In this document: positions 8,015 to 10,651 of the stretch, piece by piece
How positions within the stretch are numbered: the stretch's first letter is position 1
Layout of the letters: each line of letters begins with the position of its first letter
DNA from: Prevotella conceptionensis 9403948
GTDB taxonomy: Bacteria; Bacteroidota; Bacteroidia; Bacteroidales; Bacteroidaceae
Direction: 5' to 3'
Length of the DNA stretch: 47,885 nucleotides
NCBI RefSeq assembly: GCF_000312305.1
Contig: NZ_HE999447.1
Location: 73,514-121,398 of the forward strand
Program-made: the position numbers and the translations under genes
Notes under the pieces: generated by a model
Seen by the model: only the letters and a program-made list of their open reading frames with translations
Told to the model about the DNA's origin: nothing
The model's database searches: none

Positions 8015-8200
8015 ATGAAAATAAGAATAAACTGGAAACGCATCCTTGTTCTACTCCTTGTATCGGCAGGCTTGGTCTACATCACCAAGTCGTTCCTCAT
8101 GTCTGCTGGCATATTTTTGCTGCTCTTTGCAGCCGACAGCTTATTGGCTAGATACGACGAAGACTGGAGAAGACGCAAACAAAGGGAAGAACACGAATAA
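8015..8200 (+). CDS. Small membrane protein (61 residues)
   Basis: It begins MKIRINWKR, then has two closely spaced hydrophobic segments (about 10-23 and 28-43), and ends in a highly charged tail (RYDEDWRRRKQREEHE). Topology is probably a hairpin in the inner membrane. A TACCTTTG box (8002-8009) ends only five bases before the ATG, suggesting a nearly leaderless message. It is followed after 28 bases by the kinase/RapZ-C fusion on the same strand. No family recognised. Confidence 0.6.
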   Translation: MKIRINWKRILVLLLVSAGLVYITKSFLMSAGIFLLLFAADSLLARYDEDWRRRKQREEHE

Positions 8201-8228
8201 GAAGATTAAGCAAACGAAGGCGCACAAA

Positions 8229-9770
8229 ATGGAAAAACTAGCTGAACTATATAAGCGATGGAAAGGTACGGCTCCAGCCATGATGGCTCAATTGCCCGAA
8301 GCGGGGAGCAACCGAAAGTATTACCGACTAACGGGTGAAGACGGAGAAAGCGTTATTGGCGTGGTGGGAAACAGCAGGGACGAAAACCACACCTTTATCT
8401 ATCTTACACGCCACTTTACGGAAAGGCGATTGCCCGTGCCTCGCATTCTAGCCGTAGACGAAGACGAATTGCGTTACCTGCAAACCGACTTGGGTAGCAC
8501 TTCTCTATTTGACGTTTTGCGCGGCGGGCGCGAATCGGGAGGAAGGTACAACATGCACGAGAAACAATTGCTTACTGCCGTTATACGCGAACTGCCCAAC
8601 ATACAGATAAGAGGTGCGCGCGGATTGGATTGGCAAGTGTGTTATCCACAGCCGGAGTTTGATGTCGATAGTGTGCTTTTCGACCTTAACTACTTTAAAT
8701 ATTGCTTTCTTAAAGCCACAGAACTTGAATTTCATGAGCTAAAATTAGAGGCTAACTTCCGCCTTTTTGCTAAGGATTTGACGTCGGAAAAGAGCGAAAG
8801 CTTTCTTTATCGCGACTTCCAAGCGCGCAATGTGATGCTCGACAGTAATGGAAAGCCCTACTTCATCGACTACCAAGGCGGCCGAAAGGGTCCGTTTTAC
8901 TACGATTTGGCCTCGTTCCTATGGCAGGCGGCAGCCAAATATCCCTTTAAACTGCGCCGCGAACTAGTTTACGAATACTACAACTCGCTGAAAAACTACA
9001 CCGAAGTGCCATCGGTAAGGCATTTCGTTGAACGTCTCAGTCTTTTCGTCCTGTTCAGAACATTACAAGTATTGGGTGCTTATGGGTTCAGGGGCTACTT
9101 CGAACACAAGAAACATTTCATCAATAGCATTCCGCCAGCCATTGATAACTTGCGCGAGTTGCTTAAATTAAAGAAATTCTTCCCCTACCCTTACATGATG
9201 GATATGCTGAGGCGACTGACCGAGTTGCCGCAATTCGCCCACATCGAAGAACCTGCACTGAGTCGTGCCGACGGCTTTAAGACAACTTCCCACACCGTAT
9301 ATAAGGCGCACCCACAAGATGGACCCGCCACGTTCTCCAAGTACGACGGCAAAGGGCCGCTAGTGGTTAACGTTTACAGTTTTTCTTATCGCAAGGGCAT
9401 TCCCGAAGATACGTCGGGCAATGGCGGCGGATACGTATTCGATTGTCGTTCTACGCACAACCCCGGACGTTACGAACCTTATAAGCAATTAACGGGACTT
9501 GACGAGCCTGTTATCCGTTTTTTGGAAGACGATGGTGAGATACTAAACTTCCTTGATGGCGTTTATGCCTTGGCCGATCACCACGTGCGCCGTTACATTC
9601 AGCGCGGTTTCACCAGCCTGATGTTTTGCTTTGGCTGCACGGGCGGTCAGCATCGCAGCGTTTATTCGGCACAGCATTTGGCCGAACATCTGCATAATAA
9701 GTTTGGCATTGAGGTGCACATCACCCATCGCGAGCAGAACATCAGTTCGGTTTTGCAGGCAAAACGCTAA
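8229..9770 (+). CDS. APH-type sugar kinase fused to a RapZ C-terminal domain
   Basis: 513 residues with two parts. Residues about 1-340 form an aminoglycoside-phosphotransferase-like kinase: catalytic loop YRDFQARN (HxD-type, His replaced by Tyr) and metal Asp in FIDYQGG. Residues about 378-513 match the C-terminal half of RapZ: FDCRSTHNPGRYE, LTGLDEPV and GCTGGQHRSV near 468, the loop that in E. coli RapZ binds glucosamine-6-phosphate. The Walker-A N-terminal domain of RapZ is absent. The next gene is a MurU-like nucleotidyltransferase, recalling the AmgK-MurU pair, which turns cell-wall amino sugars into UDP-MurNAc. I infer an anomeric amino-sugar kinase with a sugar-phosphate-sensing domain. 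The ATG at 8229 is chosen because it begins the kinase fold; an upstream start would overlap the previous gene. Confidence 0.8.
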   Translation: MEKLAELYKRWKGTAPAMMAQLPEAGSNRKYYRLTGEDGESVIGVVGNSRDENHTFIYLTRHFTERRLPVPRILAVDEDELRYLQTDLGSTSLFDVLRGGRESGGRYNMHEKQLLTAVIRELPNIQIRGARGLDWQVCYPQPEFDVDSVLFDLNYFKYCFLKATELEFHELKLEANFRLFAKDLTSEKSESFLYRDFQARNVMLDSNGKPYFIDYQGGRKGPFYYDLASFLWQAAAKYPFKLRRELVYEYYNSLKNYTEVPSVRHFVERLSLFVLFRTLQVLGAYGFRGYFEHKKHFINSIPPAIDNLRELLKLKKFFPYPYMMDMLRRLTELPQFAHIEEPALSRADGFKTTSHTVYKAHPQDGPATFSKYDGKGPLVVNVYSFSYRKGIPEDTSGNGGGYVFDCRSTHNPGRYEPYKQLTGLDEPVIRFLEDDGEILNFLDGVYALADHHVRRYIQRGFTSLMFCFGCTGGQHRSVYSAQHLAEHLHNKFGIEVHITHREQNISSVLQAKR

Positions 9771-9814
9771 CGAGAGAACATCGTTGGCAGTCAGCCAAAA
9801 GGCGCGACGAAACC

Positions 9815-9845
9815 TTTGCCGAGTGAAAAAATATGGTTAAATTTG
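9815..9845 (+). promoter_or_regulatory. Consensus promoter for the MurU-like gene
   Basis: TTTG (9815-9818), 19 bases, TAAATTTG (9838-9845), 29 bases before the ATG. The nucleotidyltransferase can therefore be expressed independently of the kinase gene. Confidence 0.75.
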
Positions 9846-9874
9846 CAACACAATAAAATACAAACAGCACGAGC

Positions 9875-10651
9875 ATGATGCAAGCAATGATTTTTGCGGC
9901 AGGTTTGGGAACAAGACTTAAACCGCTTACCGACACCATACCCAAGGCTTTGGTTGAGGTTGGCGGAGAAACCTTACTGCAACGCACCATCGAAAGGCTG
10001 AAAGCTTGCGGTGTAAAAAGCATGGTGATTAATGTTCACCACTTTGCGCAAGCCATCATAGACTATCTTCAAGCCAACAATAACTTCGGCGTGGAGATTG
10101 CCGTAAGCGACGAATCACAACACTTACTCGATACGGGAGGCGGACTGAAAAAGGCAGCCCAGCTCTTTTCGCCCACAGCAAACATCCTCATTCACAACGT
10201 AGACATCATTAGCAATGTAAACTTACAAGCGTTTTATGCCCACCAAGCACAGAGCGATGCCTTGCTACTTGTAAGCCAACGCGAAACAAAACGCTACCTA
10301 CTTTTCAATGACGACATGCGGCTTGTTGGCTGGACGAACGTGGAAACGGGAGAAGTACGCTCGCCCTACCCCACACTCAACCCACAGACATGTAAGAAAC
10401 TGGCCTTCGCCGGAATCCATTCGTTTTCGCCAAAGCTTTTCGAAAAGATGGAGAAATACCCTGCTAGGTTCGGCATTATCGACTTTTATCTCGACCAATG
10501 TGCCCAAAACGACATCCGCGGATACGAACAACAGGGGCTGCAACTGCTCGATGTGGGCAAGCTTAACACGCTAGAACGTCTGCCAAAGCCCAAGGCAGGC
10601 AGTCTTGCCATCAGCGATGCAGACATCTTACAACATTTATATGCGCAATAA
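9875..10651 (+). CDS. MurU-like sugar-1-phosphate nucleotidyltransferase
   Basis: 258 residues of the NTP_transferase family. The signature [20 protein letters not shown] (residues 6-25) includes the GxGxRLxPLT nucleotide loop and the catalytic PK lysine. HNVDIISN supplies the metal Asp. In Pseudomonas MurU (about 223 residues) makes UDP-MurNAc from MurNAc-1-P. The position directly after a kinase of the AmgK superfamily supports the same recycling role, though mannose-1-P or another sugar-1-P cannot be excluded. Two in-frame ATGs (9875 and 9878) are equally possible starts. Confidence 0.75.

Follow-up and report, generated by a model that had tools for sequence, protein, structure and literature searches.

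What is the C-terminal domain of RapZ doing on an amino-sugar kinase? In Escherichia coli this domain (hereafter RapZ_C) forms the half of a regulator that is known to sense metabolites and bind RNA, and whether its cysteine loop also catalyzes a reaction is left open in print (in the parts of PMC7199280 that bear on it). We analyzed a 47,885-nt stretch of Prevotella conceptionensis 9403948 (NZ_HE999447.1, positions 73,514-121,398, forward strand), referred to below as the window, in whose positions all coordinates are given. In the window, this domain is coupled to two enzymes of amino-sugar salvage, an AmgK-like kinase in the same open reading frame (ORF) and a MurU-like nucleotidyltransferase encoded next to it, without the P-loop half of RapZ and apparently without control of glmS, and the same is true in many Bacteroidota. 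Based upon homology, gene context and phylogenetic pattern, the two enzymes very probably represent the Bacteroidota form of an anabolic route for the salvage of N-acetylmuramic acid (MurNAc), as the original prediction, which spoke of amino-sugar salvage in general, had proposed. The role of RapZ_C within this route is harder to assign, and we slightly favor a phosphatase over a sensor.

The fused gene (8229..9770, plus strand) encodes 513 residues. Its first part, the kinase domain (residues 1-338; 8229..9242), contains a Pfam APH domain at residues 22-239 (48.9 bits against a cut-off of 23.2) and superimposes on the APH-fold kinase 3csv with a Z score of 28.0 and a root-mean-square deviation (rmsd) of 3.0 Å over 305 residues (VIA-align). 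A disordered linker (residues 349-375; 9273..9353) leads into RapZ_C (residues 377-505; 9357..9743), which Pfam places at residues 379-503 (PF22740, 110.4 bits against a cut-off of 27). An AlphaFold model of the fusion, based on 65 sequences, has a mean confidence (pLDDT) of 91.3 and drops below 50 at residues 349-375, and its residues 377-505 match the crystal structure of the E. coli RapZ C-terminal domain (CTD; 5o5s) with a Z score of 19.8 and an rmsd of 1.6 Å over 123 of 123 residues. When RapZ_C was modeled in isolation (pLDDT 95.8), RapZ was the sole strong fold match, followed by phosphofructokinase at a Z score of 6.5; the likeness between RapZ and phosphofructokinase is already in print (PMC5737377, in part). 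The full-length RapZ model PRK05416 scores 92.5 bits, below its cut-off of 244, and only profile positions 152-277 are matched. Thus, the P-loop N-terminal half of RapZ is absent by both Pfam and fold match, and an APH-fold kinase stands in its place. The original prediction of a kinase joined to RapZ_C beside a MurU-like gene is confirmed by the ORF, the Pfam domains and the fold matches, with exact coordinates, and the model resolves the two expected domains with disorder between them. We also considered a longer, TTG-started frame (8046-9770) as the gene, and rejected it because in relatives such as L064, L071 and L077 a stop interrupts this frame no more than four codons upstream of the position that corresponds to the ATG at 8229. 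Directly upstream of the fusion lies a 61-residue hydrophobic small protein (8015-8200, plus strand), with relatives upstream of the fusion in three of the 80 loci searched (L064, L065 and L072).

How closely do the two enzymes resemble AmgK and MurU? Among NCBIfam kinase models that name a substrate, AmgK (NF045759) comes nearest, though its score of 58 bits lies far below the curated cut-off of 550, which none of 247 Bacteroidota genomes reaches. The kinase half has the APH fold, with the positions of the catalytic Asp and the Mg ligands present; the residues that we take, from this fold, to be catalytic, D196, N201 and D214, do not vary among the 65 aligned sequences. These and the other residue counts below come from the window protein plus 64 of 80 related loci, a second alignment holding the window protein plus 58. 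The His of the HxD motif in the catalytic loop (Y194-R-D196) is Tyr, as originally noted; this position is Tyr in 60, Phe in 4 and His in 1 of the 65 sequences. As Tyr is the norm of the family, we rejected its reading as the mark of a dead kinase, and it gives no argument against activity. The MurU-like gene (9875..10651, plus strand) encodes a nucleotidyltransferase of 258 residues, and MurU (NF045761) is the best of 38 matching NCBIfam families at 131.6 bits, below a curated cut-off of 250; further models and structures of sugar-1-phosphate nucleotidyltransferases also match. Its best solved structure is 4y7t (E 1e-17), which we take to be P. putida MurU, and the third, 8hhd, is named N-acetylmuramate alpha-1-phosphate uridylyltransferase. 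By curated scores, then, the kinase and the MurU-like protein are distant relatives of AmgK and MurU, not members of those families. The MurU model matches 231 of the 247 genomes at E <= 1e-15, and is thus too unspecific for presence counts, so gene adjacency was used in their place.

The kinase-RapZ_C arrangement is widespread and strongly conserved in Bacteroidota. The 247 genomes form a sample of the phylum that was not selected by likeness to the fusion, and RapZ_C was found in 27 of them: in 22 it lies in the same ORF as the kinase, in four in an adjoining ORF (L011 and L025-L027), and in one at a locus without a kinase (L022). The 22 fused cases rule out an accident of assembly. Within the window's own family, RapZ_C occurs in 123 of 151 genomes (93 of the 107 that are rated complete and clean); in 117 of the 123 it sits in an ORF of at least 416 residues, a length criterion under which the kinase was not checked in each case, and the six shorter ORFs adjoin a kinase in another frame, reflecting splitting or a frameshift. 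A wider sample comprised the best 80 of at least 584 relatives, drawn from 84,980 species that were each represented by a single genome; all 80 loci are fused, a count biased by the choice of this set for likeness to the fused query. In a tree of RapZ_C, the 92 Bacteroidota domains form a group whose support is modest (0.65). Split forms turn up at several points among the fused ones.

The MurU-like gene is the steady companion of the fusion. A MurU-like match begins within 115 bp of the RapZ_C stop codon in 20 of the 27 phylum loci, with one more at 452 bp. Among the 80 best loci it lies no more than 250 bp downstream in 55, is fused in two, is elsewhere in the locus in six, and was not found in 17, three of which have at most 2 kb of sequence remaining on that side. 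Moreover, in four distinct triple fusions (L078, L133, L167 and L168; 49-76% mutual identity) kinase, RapZ_C and MurU share a single frame, with RapZ_C placed in the middle; an 874-residue ORF of another genome (G308) was rejected as a further example because its MurU lies in another frame. Clustering of neighboring ORFs of at least 90 residues revealed no further common partner, as beyond the fusion's own cluster no family recurs in more than 11 of the 80 loci.

If these enzymes drive an anabolic salvage route, genomes that carry them might manage without the etherase MurQ. We scored MurQ as absent when its best match was weaker than 1e-20; outside one clade discussed below (f17), absent genomes gave values of 1.1e-4 to 5.5e-12 and present ones 3e-51 or better, and this rule puts MurQ in 178 genomes, of which 172 exceed the curated cut-off. 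MurQ is missing from 15 of the 193 genomes outside f17. The AmgK-like kinase is present in all 15 and RapZ_C in 14 of them, spread over seven family groups, the number on which we place weight since the sampled genomes are related and Fisher values exaggerate the significance; among the 165 genomes outside f17 that lack the kinase, none lacks MurQ. That every MurQ-less genome outside f17 carries the kinase fits an anabolic MurNAc salvage route. The clade f17 itself (54 genomes) has the kinase in 53, RapZ_C, MurQ and AnmK in none, and a MupP-like HAD protein (E <= 1e-20) in 52. Its kinases (for example L028-L057) are closer to the AmgK model, at about 100-132 bits, and its MupP-like hits may be phosphoglycolate phosphatases; the curated MupP cut-off is reached by none of the 247 genomes.

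The distribution of AnmK, the enzyme that produces N-acetylmuramic acid 6-phosphate (MurNAc-6P), adds a second pattern, which bears on RapZ_C. Every one of the 18 genomes with both the kinase and AnmK has RapZ_C (one AnmK match, in G216, is weak at 1.2e-10 and was scored present), and the AmgK-like kinase occurs without RapZ_C only where AnmK was not found, in 54 of 54 genomes, though these represent just two lineages (53 from f17, plus G009). Eight of the 27 RapZ_C genomes have AnmK and no MurQ, and seven of these eight also lack a MupP-like HAD protein. Such genomes would present a gap in the route that a RapZ_C phosphatase could fill.

A third line of evidence comes from a genus in which some genomes have no MurA match. 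This is the genus of L109, a metagenome-assembled genome deposited as Tannerella sp., and such a match is missing from four of its 41 genomes. We searched 14 of the 41 for the fusion and found it in five; of the four without MurA, two have it (G259 and G280), in each case followed by a MurU-like gene, and two do not (G294 and G296, of 1.8 and 1.7 Mb). T. forsythia is described as lacking murA, murB, glmS and glmU (PMC5790795, in part), and in G259, likewise, neither MurA nor full-length GlmS was found; our guess is that it is T. forsythia.

Turning to the domain itself, the loop GCTGGQHRSV (residues 469-478; 9633..9662), a Cys-X5-Arg-Ser anion loop, is conserved as originally predicted: C470, T471, G472, H475, R476 and S477 are invariant in the 65 sequences, and G473 and V478 are also listed as invariant. 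Residues 470-477 (CTGGQHRS) fit the pattern C-x2-G-x2-R-[ST], which we take to be the signature of cysteine-dependent phosphatases, and its C, G, R and S are all invariant. In each of 25 phylum loci, moreover, and in 79 of 80 other loci, RapZ_C resembles its counterpart in the window more closely than the kinase does. The original prediction also called for a ligand pocket, and this is partly preserved. In E. coli RapZ the pocket comprises H190, T248, G249, H252 and R253, with C247 nearby; the equivalents of all but H190 are kept, and the H190 position is Gly in 65 of 65 fused sequences. Among six RapZ proteins compared, E. coli's included, this position is His in five and Tyr in one, and the fused form also has a five-residue insert, GNGGG, before VFD and near this site. 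The basic C-terminal tail with which E. coli RapZ binds RNA is not conserved in the alignments. The changed H190 position suggests a ligand other than glucosamine-6-phosphate (GlcN6P), and we would guess MurNAc-6P. The proposal that the kinase carries a built-in GlcN6P sensor is thus not established: its loop is kept, but its pocket is altered throughout, and RapZ_C persists in genomes where full-length GlmS was not found. Two stand-alone RapZ_C domains are encoded on actinobacterial linear plasmids (L183 1501-1983 and L184 1456-1998, from Streptomyces globisporus and Planobispora rosea; both annotated as RNase adapter RapZ), and their residue at the H190 position is His in one and Tyr in the other; the P. 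rosea gene adjoins a NUDIX hydrolase.

These observations can be assembled into a salvage cassette. The AmgK-like kinase would phosphorylate the anomeric hydroxyl of MurNAc, and perhaps of N-acetylglucosamine (GlcNAc), and the MurU-like enzyme would convert the resulting 1-phosphate to uridine diphosphate (UDP)-MurNAc, bypassing MurA and MurB. RapZ_C may contribute a third activity to this route as a semi-autonomous unit, holding phosphate in its Cys-X5-Arg loop and hydrolyzing a sugar 6-phosphate, MurNAc-6P in the first place, so that free MurNAc would reach the kinase. Taken as a whole, this combination of kinase, MurU and a RapZ_C phosphosugar phosphatase step is plausible, and we advance it tentatively. 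Our lean towards a phosphatase comes from the invariant Cys, the strong conservation of the domain, the variable linker, the occurrence of RapZ_C as a separate gene, and the genomes with AnmK and no MurQ. In particular, a measure that spans the linker ranges from 14 to 62 residues across the family, and this variability, together with separate RapZ_C ORFs, is easier to reconcile with a semi-autonomous domain than with a sensor wired firmly to the kinase. HpaP is reportedly, by the title of a paper, an ATPase and phosphatase. Khan and Gorke saw a likeness between the RapZ pocket and the phosphatase loop found in cysteine-dependent tyrosine phosphatases, and raised the possibility that GlcN6P is hydrolyzed (PMC7199280). 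Islam et al. report that C247A and C247S abolish RapZ activity and describe, in a crystal of the CTD with GlcN6P, what is probably a product of chemical transformation (PMC9841335). For the RapZ homologue YvcJ, both nucleoside triphosphatase and phosphatase activities have been reported (PMC7525490); these three papers are drawn on in part. The stronger form of the proposal is that RapZ_C is an active cysteine-based phosphosugar phosphatase, that the fusion takes MurNAc-6P through MurNAc to MurNAc-1P, and that the triple fusions hold the whole route to UDP-MurNAc in one chain; in that form we consider it rather doubtful.

Several observations weigh against this account. No cysteine-phosphatase fold appears among the 50 VIA-align entries listed for RapZ_C, and in Foldseek only DUSP10 emerged, at an E value of 2.9; this missing fold match is no disproof of a phosphatase. 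The phosphatase activity of YvcJ is not assigned to its C-terminal half in the relevant passages of PMC7525490. All members of the family are known here from genes alone, and the window's kinase and MurU-like protein score far under the curated cut-offs for AmgK and MurU. MupP-like HAD proteins (E <= 1e-20) are about as rare in RapZ_C genomes (3 of 27) as elsewhere outside f17 (14 of 166), so a lack of them does not single out the RapZ_C genomes; f17 alone is conspicuous. Six RapZ_C genomes (G019, G031, G116, G124, G140 and G188) have neither AnmK nor MurQ, and we identified no source of MurNAc-6P in them; likewise the window genome, which is rated 92% complete, has a MurQ match (5.8e-90) and no AnmK that we could find, and we identified no source there either. 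MurQ is present in 13 of the 27 RapZ_C genomes and absent from 14, and in the 13 a MurNAc-6P phosphatase would compete with MurQ. Finally, G009 has the kinase and a MurU-like gene and lacks RapZ_C.

Could RapZ_C instead be an allosteric sensor that raises or lowers the activity of the salvage kinase on binding a UDP-sugar or an amino-sugar phosphate, whether GlcN6P or another? Allosteric control commonly takes the form of fusion to an enzyme, and the anion loop is invariant in the aligned sequences. The isolated E. coli CTD binds GlcN6P with a dissociation constant of 10 nM by surface plasmon resonance (PMC7073468), and YvcJ binds UDP-GlcNAc (PMC7525490), each paper being cited here from passages. 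Yet the H190 position is altered in every fused sequence, with the insert nearby, and according to passages of PMC9841335 the H190A mutation of E. coli RapZ abolishes both GlmZ cleavage and glmS repression. The linker is also disordered in the model and variable in length, several genomes encode RapZ_C in an ORF of its own, which in one (G180) lies apart from the kinase gene, a pure sensor needs no invariant Cys, and the domain shows stronger conservation than the kinase under its supposed control. We nevertheless regard a sensor as a serious possibility. The central position of RapZ_C in the triple fusions would also suit a dimerization or scaffolding module that serves mainly to keep the kinase close to MurU for the transfer of MurNAc-1P, but such a module would not require an invariant Cys/His/Arg pocket, and five fused genomes (G013, G034, G131, G017 and G128) have no MurU at the locus, with MurU-model matches of similar score on other contigs; we think this improbable. 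In G180, the RapZ_C gene is at L156 5935-6336, and the only AmgK-like kinase found sits on another contig.

Two further alternatives question the pathway or the mode of action. The cassette might make another nucleotide sugar, its kinase and nucleotidyltransferase acting on GlcNAc or some other sugar in place of MurNAc; the low scores against the AmgK and MurU models, the several sugar-1-phosphate nucleotidyltransferases that match the MurU-like gene, and the GlcNAc 1-kinases 4ocu and 4ocj, which share the fold of the kinase half with Z scores of about 19 (VIA-align), would all be compatible with this. We consider it unlikely, as AmgK remains the closest among kinase models that name a substrate and MurU the best nucleotidyltransferase model, the kinase is in 15 of 15 MurQ-less genomes outside f17, G259 keeps the fusion and its MurU-like gene with no MurA found, and no sugar-nucleotide pathway genes recur widely at the locus. 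An RNA-linked role, in which RapZ_C would control an mRNA, be it glmS or a different one, in the manner of E. coli RapZ, draws on homology to RapZ and is very improbable: the P-loop half and the basic tail are gone, the window contains no Rfam match, and the RNA-binding region of RapZ is said to be restricted to Enterobacteriaceae (PMC7073468, in part). In addition, full-length GlmS was found in two of ten genomes tested, for most of which completeness is not given, and RapZ_C persists in the eight without it, namely the window genome, five Tannerella-group genomes (G259 included) and two triple-fusion genomes. In the window genome (92% complete), the best GlmS match (C6:92873-93886) spans the SIS half only; if the absence of GlmS is real, the organism would depend on external amino sugars.

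If RapZ_C is indeed a phosphosugar phosphatase, the E. coli RNA regulator RapZ would owe its sensor to a domain that began in a salvage enzyme, and the fusion may name a missing MurNAc-6P phosphatase of these bacteria. The choice between sensor and enzyme is directly testable, as the domain is purifiable and its likely substrates are available. There is also a consequence for annotation, since at least one public record labels such a kinase "RNase adapter RapZ": this is the RefSeq name of a fusion in P. distasonis (L177 2963-4393), on a record labeled plasmid and with a MurU-like gene next to it.

Among known systems, the closest is the AmgK-MurU(-MupP) recycling pathway of Pseudomonas, which likewise pairs an APH-fold kinase with a MurU-like uridylyltransferase, a resemblance joined here by the absence of MurQ from 14 of 27 RapZ_C genomes. 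It differs in that the kinase described here bears RapZ_C, scores far below the AmgK cut-off, has Tyr or Phe for the HxD His in 64 of 65 sequences, and is accompanied by a MupP-like HAD protein in only 3 of 27 genomes. MupP, the MurNAc-6P phosphatase of Pseudomonas, is an unrelated HAD protein, whereas RapZ_C has the RapZ CTD fold, and functional equivalence alone is proposed. With RapZ and YvcJ the fusion shares the fold of the C-terminal domain (5o5s) and the loop C-T-G-G-x-H-R-S, but it replaces the P-loop half with an APH kinase, has Gly for His190 and the GNGGG insert, and lacks the basic RNA-binding tail. N-acetylhexosamine 1-kinase (4ocj, 4ocu) is an APH-fold anomeric kinase of GlcNAc; its match covers the kinase half only, with 13% identity in the structural alignment. 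A search of open-licence PMC literature found no mention of RapZ together with AmgK or MurU, and broader word searches there listed no title on the fusion, though subscription papers may say more, and the kinase-RapZ_C fusion seems to be undescribed. In Tannerella forsythia, MurNAc metabolism through MurT, MurK and MurQ has been complemented by a proposed branch in which AmgK and MurU convert MurNAc to UDP-MurNAc, a route also proposed for other Bacteroidetes (PMC5790795, PMC7670621); this is the same salvage route as proposed here, and the relevant passages of those papers make no reference to a RapZ domain attached to AmgK. AmgK/MurU salvage in Bacteroidota is already proposed in print, and the RapZ_C domain on the kinase is what appears to be new.

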